Part shown: in pieces, positions 294 through 51,837 of the stretch | Layout of the letters: each line of letters begins with the position of its first letter | How positions within the stretch are numbered: position 1 is the stretch's first letter | Virus record (IMG/VR): IMGVR_UViG_3300017991_000130 | Location: 1-55,948 of that record | Source: a virus | Strand: one strand, 5' to 3' | Length of the DNA: 55,948 nucleotides | Position numbers and translations under genes: made by a program | The notes under the pieces: model-generated | Databases searched by the model: none | Seen by the model: the letters and a program-made list of their open reading frames with translations, nothing else | Told to the model about the DNA's origin: nothing

Positions 294-373
294 ATTCGGT
301 GAGACCGAAAGCACAGCGGTAGGGCAATCCACCAACGAGGATAGCAAGAGTGCGCCCGCGACCACCCTACCGC
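294..373. repeat. Inverted repeats between the last late gene and the att-like site
   Basis: Two inverted repeats are visible. TTCGGT/ACCGAA form a tight hairpin around 294-308. GCGGTAGGG (316-324) pairs with CCCTACCGC (365-373), the latter overlapping the stop codon of the last late gene. There is no clear T-tract, so these could be protein-binding arm sites as well as a weak terminator. Confidence 0.5.
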
Positions 374-1650
374 AGGATAGCGTCTAAAGCGGCCGGGGTG
401 AGATTCCAGAAGGCCATTTCGCCACGGCCGCCGACGATCCAGTCCGGCCGCCCTAGATAGCGGTCGGCACAGTGCCGCTCCCAAGGCCGCTCATGATCGT
501 GCAGGGCGATGATGGGCCGCTGACCCGTCTTGTCTATGAGGCGACTTGTCCAGCGGATGGGCAGCTCGCGGCCCGGCTGCTGGGGCTTCGAGCCGGGCGG
601 GCCGTCGATTAGAACCAGGTCCCAGGCCGTCTCGCCCACGGGCCCGGGCAGCGGGATGTCAGGCACCGGTTCGCCTTTGACGGAGGGGTAGGAGTAATCC
701 AGCACCTCGCAGCCGTGCGCCCGGCTCTTGGCTGCCCAGCGGGGATCGTTCTCAATGAAGAGCGTCCGGCCACCGGCATTGAGCACCCGCCACAAGTCGC
801 TGTCGGCCCCGCAGCCCCACACCAGCATATTGCAGGACCGCTTCAGACACACGAGCTTGCCGACAGCCTCATACTGACCGCGGACACAAATGCCCTTGCT
901 CACGGCGCGGCAAAAGGCCCGATAGGCGGCGTGGGGATTGGCCATCGGGGCCAGATGGGGGTGATACCACTTTTCGTGTTCTTTGCGCGAGAAATGAAAG
1001 ATCGAGGGTGACGCCTTATGGCGGTCAAACCAATCGGTACGGCAGTTGTACTGCCGGGCGTCCAGGCGGTTGACCCGCGCCCTGGAAGCCACCATCGCCC
1101 GGCACATGGCCAGTTGGTCCACGTGCTCGAATCGCAGCCATTCGGCGTGCCAGCGGTCCAGGAGGGCCGTTGCTGCGGGCGAGCGATCGAAGACCACTAC
1201 CCCGTCGTTGTAGTGCGGAAAGTCCGGCCGGCAAACGGCCGCGGTGGCGTCCCGCTCGACGGCCAGCGTCCAGCCGTTCCAACGGTTGTCCGGCCGGCAG
1301 AGGTGCCCTGTGGTGCGGCACTGGTGCTCCTGGGCCATGGCCAGGTCGCAGCCGCCGAGCATTTCGGCCAGCGGCGGCAGCGGCTTGTGAACCACCGTGT
1401 CGTCGTCGAGATAGAGCGTGAGCCCCGCGAAAGGGCTCAGCCGGTGCATCTGCGTCTTGTAGTATCGGCTGCCATGCCGTGGTCGGGGGGGGCAGCGGAC
1501 CCACGTGAACGGCACATCGACCGGCACGTCGCAGACTACGTGTACGGGCAGCCCGGGGCAGTGGCGCTGGACGCTGGCAATGGCGTTGAACAGCCACTGC
1601 CGGCGGCTACTGCCAAGAGAGACGAAAAGCACGCCGTCGCCCTCGGTCAT
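367..1650 (-). CDS. Two-domain protein: GT-A glycosyltransferase plus DUF579/GXM-like methyltransferase
   Basis: 427 aa. Residues 1-250 look like a GT-A glycosyltransferase: strand VLFVSLGSS, then LTLYLDDDTVV with an acidic DDD at 82-84 expected to bind metal and nucleotide sugar. Residues 274-415 resemble the IRX15/GXM (DUF579) family that methylates plant glucuronoxylan: MLVWGCGADSDLWRVLN (SAM-binding loop), FIENDPRW, WDLVLIDGPPG (343-353) and ALHDHERPWE. The ATG at 1650 overlaps the previous stop as ATGA. It is the last gene of the late operon. The inferred role is adding and methylating a sugar on a virion or host-surface glycan; substrates are unknown. Confidence 0.65.
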   Translation of the reverse strand: MTEGDGVLFVSLGSSRRQWLFNAIASVQRHCPGLPVHVVCDVPVDVPFTWVRCPPRPRHGSRYYKTQMHRLSPFAGLTLYLDDDTVVHKPLPPLAEMLGGCDLAMAQEHQCRTTGHLCRPDNRWNGWTLAVERDATAAVCRPDFPHYNDGVVVFDRSPAATALLDRWHAEWLRFEHVDQLAMCRAMVASRARVNRLDARQYNCRTDWFDRHKASPSIFHFSRKEHEKWYHPHLAPMANPHAAYRAFCRAVSKGICVRGQYEAVGKLVCLKRSCNMLVWGCGADSDLWRVLNAGGRTLFIENDPRWAAKSRAHGCEVLDYSYPSVKGEPVPDIPLPGPVGETAWDLVLIDGPPGSKPQQPGRELPIRWTSRLIDKTGQRPIIALHDHERPWERHCADRYLGRPDWIVGGRGEMAFWNLTPAALDAILR

Positions 1651-2984
1651 CGGTGGGCCTCGAAAAAGGCAGCTTTTAGCTGCCCGACGTTCTGTGCCTC
1701 GATCTCGATCACATCCCGATTCGTGGCCCCGCGGACCATTTCGGCGGTCAGGTCCGGGTGGCGGGCCACCACAACCATGCCGTCGCGGTCGGCCTCTCGT
1801 AAGAGGTAGTCGCACCACTTGCGGAGCCGGTCCGGGCGGTCGGCCTCTGGCCCGCCGAACAGCTGCTGGAGGCCGTTGTCGATGCCCGTTGCCCTGTCTC
1901 GCCAATAGCCGGGGTGGAATCCGGCGGCGTGCAGCTCCTCGACCATCGGCCGCGGGCACCGCAAGAACACGACCGGGCTGGCTCGCAGCGACACCCGGGC
2001 CTGCATCCGTTCCCGGACATCGGCCGGCAGCGAGGCCATCGCCTCGTCGGCCGTCTCGCCGCGGACCTCGTAAACCGGTCCGTCCCATGCCTGCGAGACC
2101 AGCTCGGCGGTGGCCCGCGGGTGCCAGACGGTGGGCAGCAGTCCGCCTACACATTCGGCCTGGATCATCTCCAGCCAATGCCGCAGACTCCTGATGATCG
2201 GGCTGCGTTTCTTGGTGCTGAAGCACTTTGCCAGGCCGGCGTCAATGCCGTCGGCATCGTTGCACGACATTCCCGGATGAAAGCCCGCAACCCGCATCGT
2301 CTCCAGCGCGTCGCGCGACACGAAGGCCACCGCCACCGGACCGGCTGTTTCGTGTCCGGAACCGGTCCACCACTCGGCGGGCTTTTCATCGCCGCGGATA
2401 TCCGACCGGCCGCCGGCCTGACCGATCAACCACGGGTCCGGAGCGTAGACCGTCTGGAGGTGCTGCCAGTCGCGCATTCGCCAGTCGATGTGGACCGTCG
2501 CACAGCCCCAACGCCGCTGGAGGGCCCGCATATAGGGCTTTCGGGCGGCGTAGGCATGTGTCCGTTGGGCGTAACGCACCCGAACAACGCCGTCCGAAAC
2601 GGGAATCTGCGGGGCGTGGTGCTGGCCGCCCAGCATGATTCCCTGCCAGTCTTCTGGCACCTGTGGAAGAAACGCGCGGACCCGCGCGCCGAAATCCAGG
2701 GGCAAATCGGCATCGTCTTCCAAGACCAGGACGCTGGAGACGTTTTCCATAAGGCAGTCCTGGAGTATCCGCAGATGCGATTCCCGACAACCGAAGGCCC
2801 CCCCGCCCTGCGTGAATTCCGGCGGGACGCCTACCTTGTCGCCTTCGACGGCCGGGTAGACTTCGGGACCGTAAAATGGCCAGTCGCAGCAGTTGAGGCG
2901 AGAGAAGAAGGCCCGCAACCGGTCCGGCCGCCTCCGGAGGTTGATGACGTAGACCCGCTCGAAGAAGTCTTGGATCGGCATCAT
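1647..2984 (-). CDS. Glycosyltransferase family 25-like protein
   Basis: 445 aa. The N-terminus VYVINLRRRPDRL, then ESHLRILQDCL and VLVLEDDADLP (about 86-96), matches GT25 enzymes that build lipooligosaccharides or modify hydroxylysine. The C-terminal third has two similar segments (VAFVSRDALETMRVAGFHPG and VFLRCPRPMVEELHAAGFHP), which suggests an internal duplication. ATG at 2984 overlaps the upstream stop; a second in-frame ATG follows at 2981. It is coupled to the downstream glycosyltransferase-methyltransferase by a 4-nt overlap. Confidence 0.7.
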   Translation of the reverse strand: MMPIQDFFERVYVINLRRRPDRLRAFFSRLNCCDWPFYGPEVYPAVEGDKVGVPPEFTQGGGAFGCRESHLRILQDCLMENVSSVLVLEDDADLPLDFGARVRAFLPQVPEDWQGIMLGGQHHAPQIPVSDGVVRVRYAQRTHAYAARKPYMRALQRRWGCATVHIDWRMRDWQHLQTVYAPDPWLIGQAGGRSDIRGDEKPAEWWTGSGHETAGPVAVAFVSRDALETMRVAGFHPGMSCNDADGIDAGLAKCFSTKKRSPIIRSLRHWLEMIQAECVGGLLPTVWHPRATAELVSQAWDGPVYEVRGETADEAMASLPADVRERMQARVSLRASPVVFLRCPRPMVEELHAAGFHPGYWRDRATGIDNGLQQLFGGPEADRPDRLRKWCDYLLREADRDGMVVVARHPDLTAEMVRGATNRDVIEIEAQNVGQLKAAFFEAHR

Positions 2985-3274
2985 TCGGCGAGAACAGCAC
3001 TCCACTCAGGGCATTTCAAGTCGGGGTCTTCGAGCATTCGGCGAAACCGCCTTTGCCGGGCGCAGCCGTCGTAGACCGCGCAGCTATCGTCTCGGTAGTC
3101 CTCGCACTGGCGGCAGACCTCCAGCAGCCGGGCAATCTGTTCGGCAGTGCGATGCGGCCGCGGGGCCTGGCAGTTTCGCCGAGCCTTTTTTGTCAGAAGC
3201 CGGATACGGCTTGGGTCGCAGCGAGGACACCACCATCGCCCGTCAGAAAGCCGCTGAAGTTTGCAATCTATCAC
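2981..3274 (-). CDS. Small cysteine-rich zinc-ribbon-like protein
   Basis: 97 aa from a GTG at 3274 (GTGA overlap with the previous stop). It has a CPRC knuckle near the start, a basic stretch, then CRQCEDYRDDSC and a terminal CPEW. The pattern implies metal binding. No catalytic motif is visible. Its position directly before two glycosyltransferases suggests an accessory part of the glycan cassette, but this is only context. Confidence 0.6.
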   Translation of the reverse strand: MIDCKLQRLSDGRWWCPRCDPSRIRLLTKKARRNCQAPRPHRTAEQIARLLEVCRQCEDYRDDSCAVYDGCARQRRFRRMLEDPDLKCPEWSAVLAE

Positions 3275-37437: not shown

Positions 37438-39696
37438 TCATTTGGCGAGTCGCCACCGCCGGTTGCCGTTGCGATTGAAGCGTATCGACTGCCGCGGCGC
37501 GGAAACCTCCCGGTGATCCACGGAAGTCGGCTGCTCCTGCAGCCCGCGGGTGGGAGAAAACACCAGGTAGCGGAGGCAGTCGGCCAGGTCGTCGTCTCGC
37601 TTCATCGGCACCGGCTTGGCGACCTCCGGGTTGAGGACGTTCCCGTCGGCCGCGGTGCGGCCTTTGCGCCAGCGGTACTTGCGCAGCTCTTCGACCAGGT
37701 GGCTGCACCGCGGGTGTATCCACAGCCGCGGCTTGCCGCTGTAGGGGCCGATCTTCAGCAGCCCGCGGACGCAGTTGATGCCCTGGTACACGTCGTTCGA
37801 CGCGGGCGCCATCTGGACACCGTAGCGGGTGAAGGCGGTCATCTCGCCCGGCCGGCTGGGGTCGGCGTAGGTGTAGCCGAACGTGTCCAGGGGCCGCAGC
37901 GTCGGCGTGTTATGGGGGTCGCGACGCCATTGCTCGAACCATCCGTACCGACTGTCGCTGATTTCTTCGAGCCGCTGGGCCACCAGGTCGCAGAACCGTC
38001 GCAATATCGGGTCTTCGGACTCGACGAAGACGTGCCACGGCGGCGGCCAGCCCCAGAAGATCGAGCGGGCCATGATCTCCACGGCGTGGTCGATGGTGAT
38101 CCGCGTCTGGTCGGCCGAGAGATACTCGTCGTAGATGAACCAGTCGCCCATGCCGTCCGCGTAGCCCCAGAGCGTGGCGTGCGGGTGCTCTTCGCTCGCA
38201 CCCCAGTCCACGGCCCGCATGTGCGTGATATTGAGCGGGAAGGCGAAGACGTCCGCGCTGACGTGCACCGCCGGGTTGAAGCTGGGGTAGATGCAGCCGA
38301 CGAACGTGGCCAGTGCCCCGGTCATGCGGGTCTGGATCAGCTCGCCGGGCACGGTGGCGAAGAACTGGTCGAACCAGCCGTCCGCCAGGTTCGCCACGTT
38401 GCAGGCGGTGTTGGCCCGATAGAACTTCCAGCCCTCCGGAGGATCGTCCATCACCTTCTCGACCCATATGCACAGTTCGGGGTCGATCGGCGTGAACTCG
38501 GCGAACTGCCCGCCGGGGAACATGTATTCGCGGCAGCCGCGGAGCACTTCGAGGAAGATGTCGAGCGGGAACTGCTCAGAGAACCAGAAGCCGCCGATCG
38601 AGCGGGCCTGCATCGAGCGGCGCCCCTGCTCGTAGCTCTTGAACTCCAACACCCAGTTCTTGCCCGGGCGCCCGGGCCACGGTTTCAGGGGCACGCTGAA
38701 CGGCAGGCCGCGCTTCGAGTCGTACCAGCGGATGCCGTCCCACTCGACCTCGCAGTCGGGGATGAACTGCTGGCCGGAGAGTTTTTCGGCCCAGCAGACC
38801 CCCATTACCTGCTCGTAGGTGTTGGAAATCACCCAGAACGGCGTGTTCTTGCGGGGCGGCGGCTGTTGCCGGAGGAGGAAATTGGCGGTCTTCCAGGCGG
38901 CGGCGGCGGTAGTGCCGCTATTGTGGTGAAAGAGACCGGCATGCTCGTAATTCCGGTGTGGCCAGACCGATAAATCGTGGAAGACATCTTGCCGTAGAAA
39001 CTCAATGGCGGCAATATGAAGGTCATTGCCTCGCGTTTCCCCTAAAGGAGACCTTGTCAATGCCAAAGAAGGTCCCGTGTCAGCTTCGTCGGCTTGGGAT
39101 TCCGAGGCGAACCGATAATGTTCAGACGCAGGTAACAATGCGTCACCGATGCGAAGCGTCCGAACTTCCCGCCAATTGCCGCGGGAATCTAAAACCCGAT
39201 GGAAGAGCGTTGCAGCAAAGGAGTCACCGTTCGACAGTCTAATGCGGTATAGACGGGCACGGCCCTTGATAAAGGGACGACTTGCCAACCCAATTTCTGT
39301 CGCTCCGGTTTGGTTGTTTCTACTCAGGACGTGAAATGGACCGTCGATCTGATCGAGGCGTCGATGCTGACGTTGCATTGGATCATAGATCAGGGACTCC
39401 CCAGCCAAACAGGCATTTCCACCGACGAGAAACGCCACGGGATCCCGGTTGCGGCAGAAGCTCGCCTGCTGGTCGAACAGTTCGGGCTTATCGGGCCGTG
39501 GGGTGAAGTTGGCCCAATAAGACTCCTGGAGCTGAGCCCACTCTTGAAACGTGGGATCAGAGGCGAGCACAGCCACGGCATCGTCCCGCAGCTCATCGGG
39601 GATCATCGACAGGGCGTCCACGCCGCGATACGTTCCCTCGCGCGGCCAGTCGTCCATGACCGCGGCAACAGTCGGCCCGTCTAGCAGTTTCCGCAA
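37438..39696 (-). CDS. terL: Terminase large subunit interrupted by a mini-intein
   Basis: 752 aa precursor, about 588 aa after splicing. The ATPase P-loop is split: residues VAFLVGGNA (87-95), then the intein, then SGTTAAAAWKTANFLL (260 on), giving GGNASGTT, where the usual lysine is threonine. Later SIGGFWFSEQFP is the Walker B region and MRAVDWGASEEHPHATLWGY opens the RNase H-like nuclease. Packages DNA through the portal. Start ATG at 39696 lies next to a repeat element. Confidence 0.85.
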   Translation of the reverse strand: MRKLLDGPTVAAVMDDWPREGTYRGVDALSMIPDELRDDAVAVLASDPTFQEWAQLQESYWANFTPRPDKPELFDQQASFCRNRDPVAFLVGGNACLAGESLIYDPMQRQHRRLDQIDGPFHVLSRNNQTGATEIGLASRPFIKGRARLYRIRLSNGDSFAATLFHRVLDSRGNWREVRTLRIGDALLPASEHYRFASESQADEADTGPSLALTRSPLGETRGNDLHIAAIEFLRQDVFHDLSVWPHRNYEHAGLFHHNSGTTAAAAWKTANFLLRQQPPPRKNTPFWVISNTYEQVMGVCWAEKLSGQQFIPDCEVEWDGIRWYDSKRGLPFSVPLKPWPGRPGKNWVLEFKSYEQGRRSMQARSIGGFWFSEQFPLDIFLEVLRGCREYMFPGGQFAEFTPIDPELCIWVEKVMDDPPEGWKFYRANTACNVANLADGWFDQFFATVPGELIQTRMTGALATFVGCIYPSFNPAVHVSADVFAFPLNITHMRAVDWGASEEHPHATLWGYADGMGDWFIYDEYLSADQTRITIDHAVEIMARSIFWGWPPPWHVFVESEDPILRRFCDLVAQRLEEISDSRYGWFEQWRRDPHNTPTLRPLDTFGYTYADPSRPGEMTAFTRYGVQMAPASNDVYQGINCVRGLLKIGPYSGKPRLWIHPRCSHLVEELRKYRWRKGRTAADGNVLNPEVAKPVPMKRDDDLADCLRYLVFSPTRGLQEQPTSVDHREVSAPRQSIRFNRNGNRRWRLAK
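38920..39411 (-). other. Mini-intein in the terminase P-loop
   Basis: 164 codons (residues 96-259). Block A CLAGESLIYDP, block B ATLFHRVLD with Thr163 and His166, and the C-terminal blocks FHDLSVWPHRNYEHAGLFHHN; the next extein residue is Ser260. No endonuclease domain between the blocks, so it cannot home itself. GC looks lower than in the extein. Confidence 0.85.
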
Positions 39697-41037: not shown

Positions 41038-41195
41038 CAGAACGGTATGTCATCATCTCCGGGCCTGCCATCGGGCTCACCGGCCGAAGGCGGCACCTCC
41101 GGCCCCGGGCCGCCTCCATCCGCCGCCGGACCATCATCCCCAGCGCCTCGACTGCGACCCGCGCCGTGGCCGCCGCCCTCGACGAGGCAATCAAT
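41037..41195 (-). CDS. Reading frame encoding an isolated SSB-type acidic tail
   Basis: 52 codons directly after the small terminase stop, ending RPGDDDIPF, the exact tip by which bacterial SSB binds its partners. The stretch GDDGPAADGGGPGPEVPPSA resembles the tail of the phage's SSB-like protein (TDEGPAADKQPPPDTPPFDA). No ATG or well-placed GTG: the possible start is ATT at 41195, a GTG at 41096, or +1 frameshifting from the terminase stop. The next gene is coupled by TGATG, which supports translation. Confidence 0.5.
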   Translation of the reverse strand: MDCLVEGGGHGAGRSRGAGDDGPAADGGGPGPEVPPSAGEPDGRPGDDDIPF

Positions 41196-41814
41196 TCAGC
41201 CCCGATCCGAGCTGCCCGTCGAGCCTGCGACGCTCGGCGATCTTCTCCATCAGCCGCTGGAGCATCGCCTGGTCGGTCTCGGCCGGCGTCATGCCGGCCA
41301 CCCGCAGCTCGCCACCGATGTCGTGCTTGTGGTGGATCGGGGCGTAGTGGGAGTGGACCCGGGCCCGGAAATCGAGACACCACTGGATCACCTGGAGCCA
41401 AGCCACCTCGCCCGTCCTGGTCACCCGGGCGGTGGCCTGCTTGACGATCCGGAGCCGCTTCTGGCCGCGCGGAGTGGCCGTGAGTGCCTTCTCGATCGTC
41501 TCCCGGGTCTCGCCCGGTGTGGCACTGTGAAACCGCTCCCAGGCCGTCCGCTCGATCAGCGCCACCTTGGCCAGGTCCTCATCCAGCCGGGAGCGCATCC
41601 GCTCGCGCCAGAGGGGACAAATGGTCTGCTCCAGGTGGTGCAGGATCGTCGTGTGGTGCACGCCGAACCGTTTGGCAATCGTGCGCAGGGGCACGTTTTT
41701 GAGCCACAGATCGGCAATTTCCTGGAGGGCGCCCGGCGTGACGGGCCGCTCCTTGCCCGGCGGGCGCCCTTGCGGCCGCTTCGATGCGCCGTTTGATCCA
41801 GGTGTTTCAGGCAA
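41191..41814 (-). CDS. terS: Terminase small subunit
   Basis: 207 aa from TTG 41814, with GGGGAGG seven bases upstream; a TTG at 41844 lacks an SD. Pro/Gly/basic start, then HTH ALQEIADLWLKNVPLRTIAKRF and HHTTILHHLEQ, a helical middle, and HSHYAPIHHKHDIGGELRVA near the end. Its place before the large terminase, with HTH plus oligomer helices, fits TerS that recognises pac/cos. Confidence 0.6.
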   Translation of the reverse strand: MPETPGSNGASKRPQGRPPGKERPVTPGALQEIADLWLKNVPLRTIAKRFGVHHTTILHHLEQTICPLWRERMRSRLDEDLAKVALIERTAWERFHSATPGETRETIEKALTATPRGQKRLRIVKQATARVTRTGEVAWLQVIQWCLDFRARVHSHYAPIHHKHDIGGELRVAGMTPAETDQAMLQRLMEKIAERRRLDGQLGSGLN

Positions 41815-41848
41815 TTCGCTTCCTCCCCTTGCCTGTGCGTCCAATGGG

Positions 41849-42880
41849 TCAGCTCGCCGGCATGGCCACCGCGCCCGGGTCCTCTTCGTACCGCTTGATG
41901 ACCGCGCGGACCTTCTGCGGGCTCACCCTCTGCTCGCTGGTGGTCAGCTCCGAGGCGATGTCGGCCGCCTCGACCCCCTGCTCGTGGAGCTGCACTATTT
42001 GCTGCTCGACGGAGAGGGTTTCTGCGGCCGCCTTCTTCCCGGTCTTCTCCTGATCCGCCAGCCGCTTCCGCTCCGCGTCCTGTGCTTTGAACTGGCGGGC
42101 CATCGGCTCCGGCAGCTCCGGCTCGAACTGGCCCGGCGTGGCGTTGAGGCTCGGGCCCTCAGGCGGCCGCGGCAGCCCCAGGACCTCGCACTGGGCCAGC
42201 ACCTTTTCGGGAGTTGTACGGAGCATCTCGGCAATCTGGCCTAATGATACATTTTGACGGACCAGGTCCTCCAGCGACTCCGGGCATTCCAGACTCATCC
42301 TGGCCACCTTCCGCTCCCGCAGCCGTTTGACGCGCTCGAAGATGGCTGACTGCTCCGTGGCCGCCGCCTCCCGCAGCCGGGTGACCGGATCGACCCAGCC
42401 GGTGGTGTGCTTGCCCGGTTCGGCCAGCTCCTCCTCGATCCTCCAGGTCTCGGGGGTGCCGCGGGCGTCGATCCAGCCGTAGATCTCGCAGATCTGGGGA
42501 TCGCCCACTCTCTGCTCCCGCAGGAGCTTGACCGACTCGACGGGCGGCCTTTGCGGGGCGGTCACGCCGCGGTATTCGCCCACCACCGCCTCCCAGGCCT
42601 TCCAGGTGGATTGTCCCGGTGGAATCATGACCGTGCCCCGCCGGTCGGCGTCTGCCTGCCAATCGTGCCACTCGCGGCCGAACGCCGCCACCAGTTCCTG
42701 GAGCGTCCGGCAGTCGCCGGGAATGCTCCCGTGAGCCCAGCCCTCGATGAGGTCTACCATGGCCTCGTTCAGGCCGGACGTAACGTAGGGGAGGTCCGTC
42801 CTGCCCGCCCACCGGTCGTGCTGGTCTATGGTCCCCTCGATGAGGCCCAGAAGAAACTCACGCCGCTCTCGATCGTCCAT
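41849..42880 (-). CDS. HTH DNA-binding protein of the packaging/replication border
   Basis: 343 aa; AAGGAG six bases before the ATG at 42880. Helical throughout. SLGQIAEMLRTTPEKVLAQC is one HTH and VSPQKVRAVIKRYEEDP a second near the end. First gene right of the iteron region on the leftward transcript; could be an initiator or a pac-binding partner. Confidence 0.5.
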   Translation of the reverse strand: MDDRERREFLLGLIEGTIDQHDRWAGRTDLPYVTSGLNEAMVDLIEGWAHGSIPGDCRTLQELVAAFGREWHDWQADADRRGTVMIPPGQSTWKAWEAVVGEYRGVTAPQRPPVESVKLLREQRVGDPQICEIYGWIDARGTPETWRIEEELAEPGKHTTGWVDPVTRLREAAATEQSAIFERVKRLRERKVARMSLECPESLEDLVRQNVSLGQIAEMLRTTPEKVLAQCEVLGLPRPPEGPSLNATPGQFEPELPEPMARQFKAQDAERKRLADQEKTGKKAAAETLSVEQQIVQLHEQGVEAADIASELTTSEQRVSPQKVRAVIKRYEEDPGAVAMPAS

Positions 42881-43146
42881 GCCGGGCTCCTTGATGGTCC
42901 GGCCCGTCATCGTCTTAGGGATTCCGTCCCCGTGCTGACGGTGTTGTGACCGATGAGCGGGGAAGACGTCAAGCGGCTGATGGCCACCCTGCGGGGCCGC
43001 ACGGCGGCGACGGCTACTCGTGGCTGGCCATTACTGGTCTGTGGCTGGCCATTGCCAAACCTGACCCTGTAGTCTGTTTGCGGGGGTGTTCGCGAACGTT
43101 CGCGAACGCCATTCGCGTTTGGACTCTATCTGCCGCCTTTGGGGGG
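42881..43146. other. Intergenic, no gene seen
   Basis: Right-hand flank of the HTH gene. Contains the palindromic CGTTCGCGAACGTTCGCGAA around 43085-43110, which may be an operator. Confidence 0.4.
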
Positions 43147-43430
43147 TTGTTCCAAATGGTTCAACGGCCCGGAACGATCTTTTTCGCCGTAAGGTCTTAC
43201 TGCTACACGCTCTACATCAGCCGCGGGAGATTGTTCCAATGTTCCAACGGAACAGAGAGCCATACGGCGCACGAATCGAGGGTCTGCCTAAGTACTAATT
43301 GCGCGCGCGCGCGCGCGTGTATGTGTAAACGCTGGAACAATTGGAACAATGGAACATTCTCTTGTAACTTCTTTTGTAGAAAGAGGATAAGATAATAGAG
43401 ATTGTTCCAAGATTGTTCCATTGTTCCAAT
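43147..43430. repeat. Nine GTTCCA boxes in AT-richer DNA
   Basis: GTTCCA or its complement occurs at 43149, 43233, 43241, 43333, 43342, 43350, 43404, 43415 and 43423. A (GC)n tract spans 43301-43317. No gene. Possibly initiator or regulator sites beside the iterons. Confidence 0.55.
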
Positions 43431-43445
43431 CGCGTTGCGTCGCAC

Positions 43446-43533
43446 CAAATGCGCTCGAAATGTCATCGAAATGCAGCCCAGATGTGCCGCAAATGCGCTC
43501 GAAATGCAGCAGCAATGTGCCGGAAATGCGGCG
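43446..43533. repeat. Iteron array 1: eight 11-bp repeats (origin candidate)
   Basis: Units start at 43446, 43457, 43468, 43479, 43490, 43501, 43512 and 43523; consensus (C/G)AAATG(C/T) plus four bases. Two mismatched units (43479, 43512) keep the phase. Near the helicase gene. Confidence 0.75.
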
Positions 43534-43559
43534 AAGTTGCTGCCGACCCCTGAAGAGAC

Positions 43560-43634
43560 AGGGGGTTGGTATCCCCTAACCCCTCTATTTGCAGGTTAAG
43601 GCAAGGCTTTGTGAATCGCGGTCGCCAACCCCCT
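43560..43634. repeat. Inverted repeat between the two iteron arrays
   Basis: AGGGGGTTGG (43560-43569) and CCAACCCCCT (43625-43634) are exact inverted copies; TTGGTAT/ATACCAA also pair. Candidate melting or cruciform element. Confidence 0.6.
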
Positions 43635-43687
43635 CTGGAGCAAAGGAATACCAAATCCCGCAGAAGAGGCAGAGGGCAATTTGCGGG

Positions 43688-43742
43688 CAAATGTTGCCTT
43701 GATGCGCCCGAAATGCGGCGGAAATGTCGCCAAGATGCGGCG
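43688..43742. repeat. Iteron array 2: five 11-bp repeats
   Basis: Units at 43688, 43699 (weak), 43710, 43721 and 43732, in phase with array 1 (165 bp = 15 x 11 apart). It abuts the helicase stop codon. Confidence 0.65.
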
Positions 43743-43744
43743 AT

Positions 43745-45571
43745 TCAGAATCGAGAGGCGGCGGACTCCGTTTGGTCGCCCTCGTCGTCGCCCAGGAAGT
43801 GCTCGTCGAACCACGCCCAGTCCAGCTCGACGCCCCAGACAAGCCGACCGGTGAGTCGCCGCTTGCGGCGTCTGGCCGTAGGCAATCGGAGCAGGATGGT
43901 GTCGATCGACTGCGACCCCTCCGCCCAGCGCGTGCCGGAGAGCAGATAGCGGCGGATCGTCCGCACGTCCAGGAAGAGCCCCGTCTCGGGGGCGTTGACC
44001 CACTGCCGCGGTCCGACGGAATCCGACGCCACGGCCAGGCCCACGCATTCCAGGGCCTCTGGAGCATCGCTGTAGAGGCTCGCGTGCGAGAGGAGTTGCG
44101 AGACGCTGGCCTGCTGGCCCTTCTCCAGCGAGACCAGGGAGGCCAGGATCGTCTGCATCAGCTCCACCTGGTCGGACTCCTGATGCGACTGATCGGAGAC
44201 CTGCGAGCGGGCGCAGAATTCCAGCACCTCACGGGCGGCCGCCGGGCTGTCAGCATGGCCCAGGGCCACCGCCAGCATGGCCGCCGGCACGGCCAGCGAC
44301 TCGACCGTGCGGCCGTCGAAACCCTCCAGAGGGTGACTCCCCAGCTCGGAGGCCAGCGCCAGGGCCGGTCCCGTGGCCCGCACGGCGATCGCCAGGAGCC
44401 GCTGGCCCAAATCCACCAAAGCATCCGTCGGCGGCATCCGAAACGCCTGCTGGGCCTCTGCCGTGGGCCGGAGCATCTCGAAGGAGAGGTACCGATTCCG
44501 GTCTGGTTGACGCTCCATGCCCACCTCGATTGCGGCAATCCAGCAGATGTGCCTGAGCCCGAACTCGATGCCGCCCTGGCCCGGGGTGCCCCGCAGGATG
44601 CGGGAGCCGGTGCCGCTGGTCCTCAGGAGCTCCAGGACCCGGCGGCGGTGGTGGTCCGATTCAAACTCATCGATCAGCACCACGCAAGCCCGGTGGCGAA
44701 TTTTCTGCCGAAGACCCGCCTCGCTGGGCCGGTCGGTGGCCAGTTCCAGTGGACCGTAGATCCCCTTGAGGAGATCGAGGAAGGACGTCTTTCCGCTCGT
44801 GGACTCGGCCGTCAGGGCCACATGCGGCCGCCACCGCCAGACCGTCTGGACCCACGAGGCGAGCACCAGGCCGGCCAAGAGCATCGAGGCGCCCTCCCTG
44901 ATCTGCCACCGCCAGAGGGCCAGGAGTTCCACCAATTCATCCAGGGCAGTCTGCCGCCAACCGGCATCGGCCGCCCGCTCCAAGTCGGCCGAGAGCCGCT
45001 CGAACGTGTACCAGGGCCGGCTGTCTAGGTCGAGCAGCATGCCCGCTACTTTGGGGCGGGTGACTCTTGAGAGCTTTTCGGCTTTCAGGTCCCAGACGGC
45101 TGCTTCCCGGCTGCCGACCAGCACGAGCCGGTCGCGGCTCAGCCAGCAGCCCGAGCCACGGGCCGTCTGGTCGAAGATCCGTTGTTGGCCGGCCTGCATG
45201 GCGATGGCCTCGGTGACCCGCCGAAGGTGGAAGCTGTCGGGCGCCGCGGCCTCCTCGCCCAGGAAGACGCGGCCGCGGATAGCCGGGCCGGCGATCTGAT
45301 AGAGGTCGGGGATCGAGAGCCGCGAGATCTTGGGGATCACGTCGGTCTTGCCCTGGGCGAAGACCACGATCTCGCCGTTCGGCCGCTCGCCCAGAACGTC
45401 GATTCCGAGGGCCTCGGTGACCCGCCTGTCGGGCTCGATCGACGGGCCGGCCTCGTGGCCTTCGTCTGCGCCCGCGGCCGCCTCTGGGGCTTCTGGCGCC
45501 GCCGGCAGCTCGGTGACCGGCGAGGCGGCCGCCAACTCCAGCAGATCCTGGTAGGTGTGATTTTTGTCCAT
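43745..45571 (-). CDS. AAA+ replicative helicase-like protein
   Basis: 608 aa. Walker A AESTSGKT (255-262) and Walker B VVLIDE (297-302), with an arginine-containing segment SDHHRRRVLELL. Resembles the helicase half of DUF927/primase-helicase proteins. The TOPRIM primase gene ends one base before its ATG, so the pair act together. The iteron arrays follow its stop. Confidence 0.65.
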   Translation of the reverse strand: MDKNHTYQDLLELAAASPVTELPAAPEAPEAAAGADEGHEAGPSIEPDRRVTEALGIDVLGERPNGEIVVFAQGKTDVIPKISRLSIPDLYQIAGPAIRGRVFLGEEAAAPDSFHLRRVTEAIAMQAGQQRIFDQTARGSGCWLSRDRLVLVGSREAAVWDLKAEKLSRVTRPKVAGMLLDLDSRPWYTFERLSADLERAADAGWRQTALDELVELLALWRWQIREGASMLLAGLVLASWVQTVWRWRPHVALTAESTSGKTSFLDLLKGIYGPLELATDRPSEAGLRQKIRHRACVVLIDEFESDHHRRRVLELLRTSGTGSRILRGTPGQGGIEFGLRHICWIAAIEVGMERQPDRNRYLSFEMLRPTAEAQQAFRMPPTDALVDLGQRLLAIAVRATGPALALASELGSHPLEGFDGRTVESLAVPAAMLAVALGHADSPAAAREVLEFCARSQVSDQSHQESDQVELMQTILASLVSLEKGQQASVSQLLSHASLYSDAPEALECVGLAVASDSVGPRQWVNAPETGLFLDVRTIRRYLLSGTRWAEGSQSIDTILLRLPTARRRKRRLTGRLVWGVELDWAWFDEHFLGDDEGDQTESAASRF

Positions 45572-46576
45572 TCAGCTCAGCCAGTCTCGCACATCCTTGC
45601 CGTGCTTGTCGGCAATCGGGTACGGGAGCGTGATCGAGCGCACTTCACGGGCCACCCGGGCGGCCAGTTTAGCCTGTTCGATGCCGCCGGCCTGCCCGTC
45701 CCGGTCGCAGTCGTGGACCACGTAGACTATCTTGCCGGCCAGGTGATCCCAGAATTCCTCGGGCAGCTTCTCGCGGCAGCCGCCGGCGTTGGCGATTACG
45801 ACATGGCGCTGCCGCAGCGATTCGGGAACGACAGACATCAAGGCCAACATGTCGCCCGGGCCCTCGGTCTTCCAGACCACCTCGGCATTGGCCAAGTGGT
45901 CCAGTCCCCAGCGGCCCATCCAGCCAGATCTTGAGCCGCCGACGGTGAGCATCTTGCGGGGTACCGGCGGCACGCCTTTGCCCTGAAAGAGCGGCAAGCC
46001 TCGGCCGGTCTTGTTCCAGATCACCCAGCCCGTGGGGTCGGCGTCCGCCAGGTGCGGCCCGTAGATCGGCAGGGCCACGACCGTGTAGCGCTGGTCCCTG
46101 GCCGGCCAGCCGGCGATGCGGGCCCCGGCGGCGATCGCCGCCCACTCGGTGATGGGCGGCTTGGTGGCGCACCACGCGCGGATCTGGTGCTGGCGGCCCT
46201 CCCGGAATACCAGCTTGTCGGAGGCCGACTCCGGCTGTCCGCCGCGGGGCAGTTTCACTCCGGTCTGGCGGGCGTAGTGCTTGCGGGCCTCCTTCCAGTC
46301 GCCAAAACCGCCCGCGGCAGCCGCGGCGAACTCGAAGAAGGAGACGTTCCGGCCCTCGCCCGTGAATTCCTTGTAGCGGCCCAGCACCGGGCCGTCGCCG
46401 GCGACGTTGACACCGGCCGACGGGTTGCGATCCTTTTCACCAGCCCCAAAGACGCGGCACGCCAGCCAGCCCGTGGCCGTCGGCCTGGTGCCGGTGATTT
46501 CGACGCCCAGAGCGGCGTACTCGGCCTTCAAGTCGAGCCGCTGGAGGATCTCGCGGGTCGCTGCTTGCCAATCCAT
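45572..46576 (-). CDS. TOPRIM-domain primase
   Basis: 334 aa. TOPRIM signature WKTEGPGDMLAL (E238) and VVHDCDRDG (D289, D291). The N-terminal 150 residues are a zinc-less primase-like part. ATG 46576 follows AAGGGAAGTCTT, an identical leader to the gene at 46922. Makes primers with the adjacent helicase. Confidence 0.75.
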   Translation of the reverse strand: MDWQAATREILQRLDLKAEYAALGVEITGTRPTATGWLACRVFGAGEKDRNPSAGVNVAGDGPVLGRYKEFTGEGRNVSFFEFAAAAAGGFGDWKEARKHYARQTGVKLPRGGQPESASDKLVFREGRQHQIRAWCATKPPITEWAAIAAGARIAGWPARDQRYTVVALPIYGPHLADADPTGWVIWNKTGRGLPLFQGKGVPPVPRKMLTVGGSRSGWMGRWGLDHLANAEVVWKTEGPGDMLALMSVVPESLRQRHVVIANAGGCREKLPEEFWDHLAGKIVYVVHDCDRDGQAGGIEQAKLAARVAREVRSITLPYPIADKHGKDVRDWLS

Positions 46577-46586
46577 AAGACTTCCC

Positions 46587-46650
46587 TTCCGTCTAATCCG
46601 TGTCTTCCGTGGTTTCCTTTGTGAGGGAACCACGGAACATGCGGAACACA
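46587..46650. repeat. Host-type CCGTG repeat element, locus B
   Basis: Left arm 46587-46617 (ends CCGTGGTTTCC) and right arm 46625-46650 (GGGAACCACGGAACATGCGG): the CCGTGGTT.CC/GG.AACCACGG core is inverted. Shares vocabulary with loci A and C. Confidence 0.65.
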
Positions 46651-46667
46651 CAAAAGCTGCCGACGCA

Positions 46668-46933: not shown

Positions 46934-47191
46934 TTACCTCCGTAGTGCATCACCCAGTATCAGCAGGCTCTCGCAGAGCCCTTCCAGCCGTTTGGCCAGC
47001 GCCAGCCGCTCCAGGGAGGAGTACTGATAGACCCAGACCTCGCTCTTGCCGAAGATGCCGGCGATCTCCCGGTTCGTCCGACCGCTCTTCTTCAGGGCCA
47101 CGACCGCCTCCATGATTTCCACTGCATCGTGCTGCTGGCGGCAGAAGTTGGCGGCCACGCTCGCGTAACACGTCCGCTTCCGCTTTTGCAC
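46934..47191 (-). CDS. Small HTH-like protein
   Basis: 85 aa from GTG 47191 (GGTGG upstream). NREIAGIFGKSEVWVYQYSSL is an HTH-like pattern. The upstream TTGACA at 47217 may belong to a weak promoter. Confidence 0.5.
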   Translation of the reverse strand: MQKRKRTCYASVAANFCRQQHDAVEIMEAVVALKKSGRTNREIAGIFGKSEVWVYQYSSLERLALAKRLEGLCESLLILGDALRR

Positions 47192-47268
47192 TCTTCCACC
47201 TAAACCAATTCCGGATGTTGTCAATCCACAGGTCAGGTTTCATGTTTGCGTCCCCCGCAAATAACTAC

Positions 47269-47658: not shown

Positions 47659-47718
47659 CACATAACACCTGATCTCATGCGCCGTTGGCCGGTGCGGAAA
47701 GACTCTCGGCCCGGCCGT
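47656..47718 (-). repeat. 63-bp direct repeat, copy 1
   Basis: Identical to 48864-48926. It holds a gene start (ATG), a short leader, and the 3' coding end GRAESLSAPANGA. Marks the left border of the ERCC4 cassette. Confidence 0.8.
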
Positions 47719-47770
47719 GCGGCTCCGGCTTCGCTCCCACCGGCGCGGGCTGTGGCGCCTTGCTGGGCAT
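47675..47770 (-). CDS. 31-residue peptide ending like the RecD tail
   Basis: ATG at 47770 with AAGGAG six bases before; reads MPSKAPQPAPVGAKPEPHGR then the shared end ESLSAPANGA. Either a real small protein or a remnant of the repeat duplication. Confidence 0.45.
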   Translation of the reverse strand: MPSKAPQPAPVGAKPEPHGRAESLSAPANGA

Positions 47771-47846
47771 CGTCTTCTCCTTCATGATTTCGCGCTGTGG
47801 CTCATTACCTCCACGACAGCCCAGGACTCGAATTTGTCGTTCTCGG

Positions 47847-48386
47847 TCATTTCTGGAGTTTGATGGTTTGCGGCGGCACGTGTTCCTTCCAGAACTTCTC
47901 GCAGGCCCCGAAGATCCTCGCCTCACCGGCGCGGCGGCAGCCGACGGTCCACCAGTGGACCCGCGGATAGCGGATCGACCAGGCCACGATCGTGCCCTCG
48001 ACGCTCTTGGGCAGCAGGCAGCTCTTCCACTTCAGCCGATGTAGTGCCGGCCGCCAGATGTCCCGCAGGTCCGCCTCGACGACGATCGCCGCGAACGTCA
48101 TCCGATCGAGCCGCTGGATCTCGGCCTCGAACCGCCGGCGTTCCTGGCCCAGCGTGGCATACAGGTCTTCGAGGCTCTTGCGCTCGACGGCGAAGCGGTC
48201 CCGGAAACGCTCGATCGAGTAGTCGCCGGTGGGAAGATAGGTCCGCACCAGGCGGACCTGAGAGTAACCGAAGAGCGTCGCCACGCCGGCGAAGCGGTAG
48301 GGGGCCTGCTCGCGGTTGTCCACGAGGATCGTGAACGGGGCCGGCTTAAGCAGTCGCGTCCGTGCTGGTTTCATCGTGGTCTTCAT
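47847..48386 (-). CDS. ERCC4/XPF-type nuclease
   Basis: 179 aa. DNREQ (D23, E26), GDYS (54-57) and VERKSLEDL (E68, R69, K70, D74) make the GD...ERKxxxD nuclease core. Cuts branched DNA in XPF/Mus81 relatives. No HhH or helicase half. Inside the cassette bounded by the 63-bp repeats. Confidence 0.7.
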   Translation of the reverse strand: MKTTMKPARTRLLKPAPFTILVDNREQAPYRFAGVATLFGYSQVRLVRTYLPTGDYSIERFRDRFAVERKSLEDLYATLGQERRRFEAEIQRLDRMTFAAIVVEADLRDIWRPALHRLKWKSCLLPKSVEGTIVAWSIRYPRVHWWTVGCRRAGEARIFGACEKFWKEHVPPQTIKLQK

Positions 48387-48866: not shown

Positions 48867-48926
48867 CACATAACACCTGATCTCATGCGCCGTTGGCCGG
48901 TGCGGAAAGACTCTCGGCCCGGCCGT
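48864..48926 (-). repeat. 63-bp direct repeat, copy 2
   Basis: Identical to 47656-47718; contains the true end of the RecD-type gene and the start of the next. Confidence 0.8.
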
Positions 48927-51276
48927 CCGGTTGGCCGTCTTCTTTGTCGTCTTCTTCATCGCTCAGGTCCTCGTTCCACGCCTCTTTCAACAGCCGCAGC
49001 CGCGCGGCCTCAATCTGCTCGGCCAGGAACGTCTTGCGGTGCCAGAGCCCGCTCGTGCGGCAGGAGGCATCGGCGACGTTCCGCCGGCCGATGGCGACAC
49101 AGTAGTCCTTGGCCCGGGAGATTGCCGTATACGTCCATTCGCGAGTCATCACCCGCCGGGCGCCGCCGTAGCCGTCGAGCATCACGAGGACGATCGGCCA
49201 CTCGCTGCCCTGGGACTTGTGGACGCTGATCGCGTAGGCCAGGTCGAAGTCGCAGCCGGCGGCCGGCTGGCCGTCCTCGCTCTCGTGCGGCCGGCCGCGG
49301 GGAACGCGCACCAGCCGCGCCGGCGTCTCCAGCCGGGCAGTGAATGAGCGTTCGGACAACTCCATTACGCGGGCCTGCTCGCCATTGGCCACGTAGGCTT
49401 CACCCGGCTGCGGCGAGCCGTTCTGGTCGCCTTCGATCAGGGGCAGCGTGCCGTTTTTCAAGCAGACGATCTTATCGCCCTCGCGGAAGGGGCAGCCGCC
49501 GACGGTCTCGCCAGTCGGATTGAGCAGCCCTTGGAGGTGCTTGTTGAGCAGCTTGCGGGCCAGCGGTGATTTGTCGTTCACGGGCACTACGACCTGGACG
49601 TCCCAGATCGGATCGTAGCGGCTCCCGTCGAGTCGGGCGTAAAACGCCTCCAGCTCGGCGATCTGCGCGGCCGGCTCCGATTGCTCGACGAGGACCAGGT
49701 TCTCCGGCTCGTCGCCCTCCAGCTCGAGCGCGGGTGAGAAGCGGATGCGATGCCGATCGCGGATCTCGGCACAACTCCGCACGATCCGCCCGGCGTTGCG
49801 GCGAATCTTCTGGAGGTGCCCGGAGGGCAGCCCGGCGGCGATCAGGTCTCGAAGCGGCGCCCCGTGGCCGACCGGGGCGAGCTGGTTGGGATCGCCCACC
49901 AAGAGCACGCGGCAGCCGTCGGGCCTGGCCGCCAAGAGCGAGGCAAAGAGACTGGTATCGCACATCGAAAATTCGTCGACGAAGAGGAAATCGAGCGCCA
50001 GCGGATTGTCCTCGTTATGCTCGAAACACCAGCCCTCTGCTCGCGTGCCCTGGCCCTCGGCCTGGACCACACCTAAGAGGCGGTGGATGGTCGTGGCCTG
50101 GATCGACAGACTTTGCTTGGCCAGACTCTCGGTGGCCCGGACAGCAGCCTTGCCCGTCGGCGCGCAGACGGCCACGCGGGCAGCGCCCTGTATTCGCTCG
50201 ATTCCGCGGATGATCTGTGCCAGGGCAAAGGTCTTTCCCGTCCCGGGCGAGCCGGCCAGGACGCCCATGAAGCCGCCCATGGCCTTGGTAACTTCCGCCT
50301 GCTGGTGCTCGCTGAGCAAAGGCATGTAGGTCGCCGGATCGGGCCACCAGGCCACCGAGGCCAGCGATTCCCGCTCGGCGCGGTGGACGTACTCGGCGGC
50401 CCGCGTTTCGGCCCACGCCTTGGCCGTCTCGGCAATCCAGCGGCAGCCGGCGGCATCGGCCCGCTCGGTCAGCAGGCCGTTCTCCCGGGCCAGTATCAGC
50501 GCCTCTTCGAGCTTCAGTTGCGCGCCGGAAATTGATTGCGCCAGCGCCCGCCGGCCGTCCTCCAGCCGGTACCAGGTGTGGCCTTCGCCCGTGGAGGCGA
50601 TCGCGTGCCACAGACAATACGCCTGCCTGGCGACGGCCGCCGGATCGTGGCCCAGCTCCAGGTACAAGGCATCGGCCCGCAGGAACCCCACGCCGGGGAA
50701 TTGCATCACGAGATACGGATTCTGGCGGACGATCCGCGGCGCGTCTTCGCCCCATTGGCGAATCAGTTTTTCGGGCAGCGAACGCGGGAAGCCCCGCTTG
50801 CCGATCAGCCCCTCCAGTTCGATCGTCACTCTCTCCAGCCGCTCGTGTGCGCGGAAGTACTCGGCAGCCGCCTCTGCCCGCTCGGGCGTGAGCCCCTCAA
50901 CCTCCTCGGCCACCAGGTCCGGATCGCTGCGCATGACCTCCAGCGACCGCTCGCGATAGAGGTTCCAGATCCGCTGAGCACGGGCCGAGCCGATGCCCGG
51001 GCCCTTGGTGAGATACCTCACCGTAGCCCGCTCGCCGGCGGGCATGGCGATCGTGAGACTCGTGAAGTGGAATTGTCGGCCGAACCGCGGGTGCGTAGTC
51101 CATTGTCCCATGAAGCGGTAGGTCAAGCCGCATTCGAGCGCCCCGCGGGCGGCGCGGCCTTTGACCACTGTGCCGTCTTCCAACGTGCCGATGACGGTCC
51201 GCCGTTCCGGGTCGGCGTCTTGGAAGACGTGCTTCTCCCAGTCGAAAACGCCAGAGACCTCCTCATGCCGATGCAC
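48883..51276 (-). CDS. RecD2-type helicase
   Basis: 797 aa from GTG 51276 (AGAAGG upstream). HhH-type N-region (GPGIGSARAQRIW), Walker A GSPGTGKT (342-349), Walker B LFVDEF (431-436), LVGDPNQLAPVG (motif III), and VHKSQGSEW plus TYTAISRAKDY near the end (motifs V/VI). 5'-3' helicase of recombination/replication. Acidic tail then ESLSAPANGA. Confidence 0.8.
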   Translation of the reverse strand: MHRHEEVSGVFDWEKHVFQDADPERRTVIGTLEDGTVVKGRAARGALECGLTYRFMGQWTTHPRFGRQFHFTSLTIAMPAGERATVRYLTKGPGIGSARAQRIWNLYRERSLEVMRSDPDLVAEEVEGLTPERAEAAAEYFRAHERLERVTIELEGLIGKRGFPRSLPEKLIRQWGEDAPRIVRQNPYLVMQFPGVGFLRADALYLELGHDPAAVARQAYCLWHAIASTGEGHTWYRLEDGRRALAQSISGAQLKLEEALILARENGLLTERADAAGCRWIAETAKAWAETRAAEYVHRAERESLASVAWWPDPATYMPLLSEHQQAEVTKAMGGFMGVLAGSPGTGKTFALAQIIRGIERIQGAARVAVCAPTGKAAVRATESLAKQSLSIQATTIHRLLGVVQAEGQGTRAEGWCFEHNEDNPLALDFLFVDEFSMCDTSLFASLLAARPDGCRVLLVGDPNQLAPVGHGAPLRDLIAAGLPSGHLQKIRRNAGRIVRSCAEIRDRHRIRFSPALELEGDEPENLVLVEQSEPAAQIAELEAFYARLDGSRYDPIWDVQVVVPVNDKSPLARKLLNKHLQGLLNPTGETVGGCPFREGDKIVCLKNGTLPLIEGDQNGSPQPGEAYVANGEQARVMELSERSFTARLETPARLVRVPRGRPHESEDGQPAAGCDFDLAYAISVHKSQGSEWPIVLVMLDGYGGARRVMTREWTYTAISRAKDYCVAIGRRNVADASCRTSGLWHRKTFLAEQIEAARLRLLKEAWNEDLSDEEDDKEDGQPDGRAESLSAPANGA

Positions 51277-51288
51277 AATCGTGCCTTC

Positions 51289-51837
51289 TCAAATGTGGGT
51301 CCACGTCTTTCGGTGCACAATCTGAAACACCGTGACTTGATGCACGCCAAACTCCTCTGCCAGTGATTTCATCGTGCATCCAGGCTTGTACCACTTGTAT
51401 CGCCGTCGAATTTCCAACACTTGGAATTCGCTCAGCACTGCACCGTTTTGTCGGCTTCCAAGAGCTTGATGTCCATTGCGTCTCTTGTCCCGTGCGTTTT
51501 CCTTCCACGTTCCCCAGCAAAGATTGCTTAAAGCATTGTTGATGGGATTGTCATCTAGGTGCCGAGCAACCATCCCGTTTGGACACGGCCCAACAAATGC
51601 TTCTAGCAGTAGCGAGCGAATCGTTCTGATCGTGTATTTCCCCTTGTGACACAGATTCACCATTAGATAACCGTGTTTGTGAGTGAACGTTTTTCGGCGT
51701 TTCCACTTGCCGGCCCTGGCGTAATGCGAACCGGGAATCTTGTTGGTCCAGACGCTGCCATTACTTCCAATACGGTAGCCGGGGAATCCATTAATCGGTC
51801 GGTACTCAACGCCGATCAGCTCTTTGTGGCGATGCAT
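51289..51837 (-). CDS. HNH homing endonuclease (NUMOD4-type)
   Basis: 182 aa. INGFPGYRIGSNGSVWTNK is the NUMOD4 start, VARHLDDNPINNALSNLCWG with KENARDK is the HNH core, and a C-terminal HTH (MKSLAEEFGVHQVTVFQIVH) follows. Clearly AT-richer than its neighbours, so likely acquired. The first residues MHRHKELIGV mimic the RecD start MHRHEEVSGV. Confidence 0.8.
   Translation of the reverse strand: MHRHKELIGVEYRPINGFPGYRIGSNGSVWTNKIPGSHYARAGKWKRRKTFTHKHGYLMVNLCHKGKYTIRTIRSLLLEAFVGPCPNGMVARHLDDNPINNALSNLCWGTWKENARDKRRNGHQALGSRQNGAVLSEFQVLEIRRRYKWYKPGCTMKSLAEEFGVHQVTVFQIVHRKTWTHI

Follow-up and report, generated by a model that had tools for sequence, protein, structure and literature searches.

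A probable P4-ori-like replication origin, with two phased 11-bp repeat arrays, beside the primase-helicase gene of an unclassified phage

The alpha protein of phage P4 is both a primase and a helicase according to the available part of PMC8628076, in which origin recognition is named in the title of a cited reference. In the annotation of the P4 record, type 1 repeats, TGTTCACC and near forms of it, are found in both ori and crr. The crr element adjoins the 3' end of the alpha gene, while ori has three tandem 10-bp type 2 repeats. Repeats are bound by the TP901-1 regulator Alt, which uses four imperfect direct copies located from -76 to -32 (PMC13123087, available excerpt), and by R1 ParR, which requires at least two 11-bp repeats and has a site made up of ten repeats flanking a promoter (PMC9426499, available excerpt).

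The window analysed here spans an entire IMG/VR virus record (55,948 bases) from an unclassified phage, and its genes with a coding signature are nearly all on the minus strand. A protein family scan gave matches to portal, head, tail sheath and tail spike proteins on the structural side, and the replication side holds an exonuclease, a RecT-like protein, a RecD-like helicase, an ERCC4 nuclease, a primase-like protein and a primase-helicase. Close to the left end of the record, 367-3005 (minus strand) holds matches to IRX15/GXM and to a glycosyltransferase family 25. The terminase large subunit (37438-39696, minus strand) has no Pfam family over its whole length, and by eye it looks interrupted by an intein-like insert at about residues 95-258. 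Two ORFs, 47675-47926 and 48883-51276, share the identical C-terminal tail GRAESLSAPANGA, as if gene ends had been copied, and the RecD-like and HNH proteins of this region (47675-47926, 48883-51276, 51289-51837) both begin with MHRH, which has the same look of gene-end copying. No close relatives of the helicase or of the C-terminal part of the terminase were found in viral_contigs or genome_contigs, the RecD-like protein retrieved a single locus at 31% identity, and a DNA-level search of phages gave none. Nor were phage homologues found for the proteins encoded by 41849-42910, 41191-41844 and 45572-46651. A literature search of partial coverage returned no account of these arrays or of the box origin described below, which is not proof of absence.

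The largest non-coding gap of the record, 42911-43744, comprises 834 of its 4,039 non-coding bases and has the primase-helicase gene on one side and the genes toward the terminase on the other. It houses two 11-bp repeat arrays and contains no ORF with a coding signature. This gap is probably an origin of replication with a build like that of P4 ori, and the fuller reading, in which the arrays would act as an extra binding site, is the one we favour with some confidence. No RNA families or tRNAs were found in the window, the promoter scan gave none, and terminator-like sites numbered one against 1.4 expected. A -10-like TATTAT is seen by eye on the minus strand at 43398-43393, within the stretch discussed next, and would suit a promoter too. 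The gap further contains paired adjacent GTTCGCGAAC palindromes at 43088-43107 and a (CG)n run at about 43300-43320.

The proposal of an origin rests first on short boxes surrounding an AT-rich stretch. Nine GTTCCA boxes had been noticed near the arrays in the sequence-only reading, and nine of the 43 GTTCCA/TGGAAC copies of the window do fall in 43149-43428. Three TGGAACA boxes (43333, 43342 and 43350, minus strand) form a left cluster at 43333-43356, and three TTGTTCCA boxes (GTTCCA at 43404, 43415 and 43423, plus strand) form a right cluster at 43402-43430. Together the left TGGAACA and right TGTTCCA clusters make up inverted 21-nt arms that are 95% complementary. Outlying boxes occur at 43147-43254 (GTTCCA at 43149, 43233 and 43241; GGAACA at 43249). 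The AT-rich core between the clusters, 43357-43401, is a candidate unwinding element: the least stable 40 bp of the entire record are 43362-43401, this stretch also ranks first at 60 bp, and the least stable 100 bp (43318-43417) cover the core. That the least stable point falls within the largest gap is weak evidence by itself, as the gap makes up 21% of the non-coding bases. Inverted paired GGAACA boxes around the core gave one match against none in 100 shuffles, and when the 6-mer was not picked by hand GGAACA came out on top around the core, with nine copies against 0.20 expected. Binding of DnaA had been suggested as a check on the origin, and here the gap offers a sole DnaA box (at most one mismatch), at 43322 on the minus strand. 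GC skew lends no support, with no switch at 43.4 kb.

The second line of evidence is the neighbouring gene. The protein encoded by 43745-45571 (minus strand) is the helicase part of a primase-helicase and the candidate origin-binding protein; it matches the PHROG DNA primase family (E 6.9e-20) and has 608 aa in which the invariant GK, DE-E and R positions are retained. Directly upstream, 45572-46651 (minus strand) encodes a primase/toprim-like protein (PHROG DNA primase, E 1.6e-5). The primase-helicase had no match in Pfam or among solved structures. Single-sequence structure models were too poor for searching (mean pLDDT 38 and 47), that of the helicase being unusable, and comparison of window proteins with solved structures gave nothing informative. 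Homologues of the helicase are distant, with at most 33% identity, and occur in 18 phage and nine plasmid records. Seventeen of these 27 records were fetched and 15 of the 17 tested, L451 and L459 being omitted since they have no annotation.

Among 16 loci including the window, the least stable 40-mer lies less than 700 bp from the helicase gene in nine, against 1.84 expected, in a test that makes no use of the boxes. In eight of the 15 homologue loci an over-represented 6-mer clusters around such a core beside the helicase gene (log10 p -5.8 to -20.1), the 6-mers being GTTACA, CTTACA, CGTTAG, GGTAAC, GGTAAT, CGTAAC (twice) and GTTGTA. The controls, five AT-rich places in each locus, mostly reached log10 p of -2 to -6; the two clear exceptions, L443 and L448, are further loci with a box cluster, of CGTTAC and CGTTAG, which 1.8 and 4.8 kb separate from the helicase gene. 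The Arsenophonus plasmid paNv_CAN17 (L458, 3104-3459) has GTTGTA boxes spaced at a 12-bp pitch within a large inverted repeat by its homologous helicase gene. In five large phages with a homologous helicase (L449 and L452-L455) the box build is absent from the stretches read. The gene order primase/helicase, gap, terminase-side genes is common to the window and three circular plasmids among the loci with boxes.

A search blind to protein sequence was also made on viral contigs, using inverted GGAACA box pairs with 42-72 bases between them, a pattern derived from the window. It gave seven stretches in five families, and in at least two of the five a helicase homologue adjoins the boxes, ending about 15 bp from them in L464 and about 120 bp in L465. 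The helicase profile matches three of the seven stretches (L464, L465 and L463, the last near-identical to L465) but only three of 439 control loci, which come from searches with other patterns and whose composition was not matched to that of the box stretches. L462, L466 and L467 had no match to the profile, while L461 overlaps L464 at 94.5%. In the box-layout comparisons of the homologue and box-search loci the box letters were taken from each locus itself or from the window, and only the tests on the least stable 40-mer, the 6-mers, the shuffles and the helicase profile are thus free of this choice.

Array 1 (43445-43532, plus strand) consists of eight NNRATGYNN units at an 11-bp pitch, with ATG at 43449, 43460, 43471, 43482, 43493, 43504, 43515 and 43526; a ninth unit, weak in score (3.0), follows at 43533-43543. 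Array 2 (43687-43741, plus strand) has five units with ATG at 43691, 43702, 43713, 43724 and 43735. The unit was earlier given as (C/G)AAATG(C/T), eight and five times; all 13 units fit RATG(C/T) at 11 bp, while the strict motif is present in nine of the 13. As had also been claimed, and as the ATG positions confirm, both arrays share one 11-bp phase with a separation of 165 bp, or 15 units. The chance of such phase agreement alone is 1 in 11. Four consecutive RATGY at 11 bp match seven times in the window and never in 100 shuffles, and the longest ATG run at an exact pitch is eight at 11 bp, compared with two to three for the other pitches from 8 to 15 bp. Within the arrays, identity at lag 11 reaches 0.59 and 0.52, and in the stretch between them it is 0.24, so the phase is held over the 165 bp without periodic sequence. 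The arrays do adjoin the helicase gene, with 3 bp between the end of array 2 and the stop of 43745-45571. An exact 10-bp inverted repeat had been reported between the arrays. This repeat, AGGGGGTTGG / CCAACCCCCT at 43560-43569 and 43625-43634, is present but ordinary, as 4.2% of simulations of the stretch contain one and the window holds 34; a foldback of the inter-array stretch was no more stable than shuffled sequences.

It had been proposed that the arrays themselves mark the origin. The location holds in the sense that the gap is probably an origin, given the boxes, the AT-rich core and the helicase-homologue loci, but the role of initiator sites for the arrays did not find support. Conservation in relatives had been named as a check, and arrays of at least five 11-bp units within 1.5 kb of a box origin are missing from all 17 other loci of the box build and from P4. 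The arrays are therefore not part of a conserved core; every relative is distant, however, and their absence there does not prove lack of function here.

A search for five-unit RATGY arrays gave at least 120 viral stretches with at least 68 distinct arrays. Of the 35 ORFs that span an array, 31 were scanned (all but L008, L058, L106 and a duplicate of the L020 ORF), and among the matches listed the Pfam families were Lin1244_N (10), DUF1376 (6), Phage_rep_org_N (2) and DnaB_2 (1), and the PHROGs primosomal, replication initiation and helicase-loader families. In L009, L018, L026, L066, L100 and others, a tract of short A/G-rich or CCAAGAA repeats comes after the 11-bp AATGC array; this pattern recurs in initiator genes, with the L100 case lying outside any ORF. 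As a control, RGATY, a permutation of the motif, was searched at the same 11-bp pitch and gave 79 stretches; here too the spanning ORFs included replication initiators and helicase loaders (20 of 22 scanned, the remaining two being repeats of one ORF), which indicates that pitch and not letters marks such genes. A 10-bp pitch control yielded at least ten ORFs of 150 aa or more, two with DUF6291, one methylase and seven without a Pfam match, and thus none of the array-initiator families among the Pfam matches listed. A 12-bp pitch control (at least 129 distinct arrays) was dropped as unfair before any family scan, since ORFs of 150 aa or more span most of the arrays, 108 of 129 among the matches listed. 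The presence of an AT-rich neighbour was tried as a mark of origins and rejected, as it did not separate initiator arrays from controls: the stability minimum of the locus lies less than 150 bp from the array in seven of 27 hand-chosen initiator loci against 0.87 expected, and in 24 among the 120 10-bp control loci listed against 5.7 expected.

These intragenic arrays raise the reading that the window arrays are iterons bound by a winged-helix or HTH initiator distinct from the helicase, with the TGGAACA boxes as operators. Arrays of the same motif and pitch do sit within phage initiator genes of many families, and a distance of about 45 bp separates array 1 from the record's least stable stretch. 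The reading is nevertheless unlikely, for the window arrays lie outside genes, the other loci of the box build are without arrays, and the window proteins scanned include no initiator of the array families.

Neighbours of other arrays, 37 of 63 of which were scanned, included HNH, terminase, partition, integrase and regulator proteins among the matches listed. L030 and L105 have ATGTC arrays at an 11-bp pitch on the terminase side, next to a regulator gene and TerS in L030 and to TerS and TerL in L105. Both are consistent with arrays acting as sites for a late-promoter activator comparable to TP901-1 Alt, with direct repeats along a single face of the helix ahead of the packaging operon, and the window arrays do lie at the border between replication and packaging genes. 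The repeats, however, run with the operon in L030 and L105 and against it in the window, they number 13 units versus four for Alt, the gene directly upstream is the helicase and not a small activator gene, and the scanned window proteins have no match to the activator family. Such a function for the window arrays is thus quite improbable.

An array in L027 (1123-1171, 11-bp pitch) is located 0.8 kb from a partition protein gene and is possibly a centromere. Together with the use of 11-bp repeats by R1 ParR (PMC9426499, available excerpt) and the plasmids among the helicase relatives, it allows the window arrays to be seen as a centromere-like partition site of a phage persisting as a plasmid. 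This is very unlikely, as no partition ATPase was detected among the scanned window proteins and no parM/parR pair beside the repeats, although small or divergent proteins could escape such a scan; a ParB-like HTH match at 46934-47224 is weak (E 0.003). Phasing at 11 bp would also suit DNA wrapped on a terminase ring, and a possible small terminase gene, 41191-41844, lies 1.6 kb away. Its identity comes from gene place and an HTH match only, and the arrays are most unlikely to be a pac site wrapped round a small-terminase ring. As initiator genes, the terminase side and a partition gene can all have them, an 11-bp array alone fits several machines.

In the favoured reading of the gap as a P4-like origin, the primase-helicase encoded by 43745-45571 would bind the TGGAACA boxes, of which two inverted triple clusters bracket the core at 43357-43401, and the core would melt. 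The helicase would then load on the melted core, after which the neighbouring primase would start synthesis. The 11-bp arrays, on the helicase-gene side of the boxes, would be an extra helix-phased site for a second protein that would assist or control initiation, in a place and at a pitch comparable to those of the P4 type 2 repeats. The regularity and length of the arrays and their placement between the helicase gene and the boxes argue for one bound, putative protein complex. More tentatively, and with less than even probability, the origin may be composite, a helicase box-and-core origin fused to a 13-unit array whose second protein couples replication to packaging, partition or late transcription. 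For a phage that has no near relatives in the collections searched, the analysis gives a concrete candidate origin, initiator and box sequence. It also suggests a testable rule, namely that phages and plasmids with this primase-helicase family have GTTAC-like boxes around the least stable stretch beside the gene. Exact 11-bp phage arrays mark several different machines, and an array alone is no proof of an origin.

Compared with known systems, the arrays in Lin1244_N, DUF1376 and Phage_rep_org_N genes resemble those of the window in RATGY core, exact 11-bp pitch and an AT- or A/G-rich tract nearby, but they are intragenic while the window arrays are non-coding. TP901-1 Alt and phage phi13 Ltr share with the window direct repeats at the border of early and late genes; they differ, as far as the available excerpts describe them, in having four repeats near the start site and the regulator gene directly upstream. 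Phaeobacter pP11_f, Leisingera unnamed3, Atlantibacter pLH84-a-B and Bdellovibrio phage phi1422 have, like the window, boxes around the least stable stretch, likewise a putative origin in each case, and the plasmid members also match it in gene order, while the letters are of the GTAAC type instead of GGAAC and 11-bp arrays are absent. The profile of the helicase family matches P4 alpha (E 7e-16 and 1.4e-12), but the alignment viewed lies in the primase part, which is absent from the 608-aa protein of the window, and the window helicase is therefore not filed as an alpha homologue. The P4 type of build, clustered short boxes bracketing an AT-rich stretch, is present in the window. P4 ori and crr have TGTTC-type short boxes in inverted clusters with an AT-rich stretch within, the boxes of crr adjoin the primase-helicase gene at its 3' end, as in the window, and both phages have additional direct repeats near the helical pitch. 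On the other hand, P4 ori is 2.1 kb away from alpha, the type 2 repeats are three 10-bp units versus 13 units of 11 bp, and the window boxes read TGGAACA where P4 has GGTGAACA, with TGTTC common to both. The likeness between the window and P4 is one of build.
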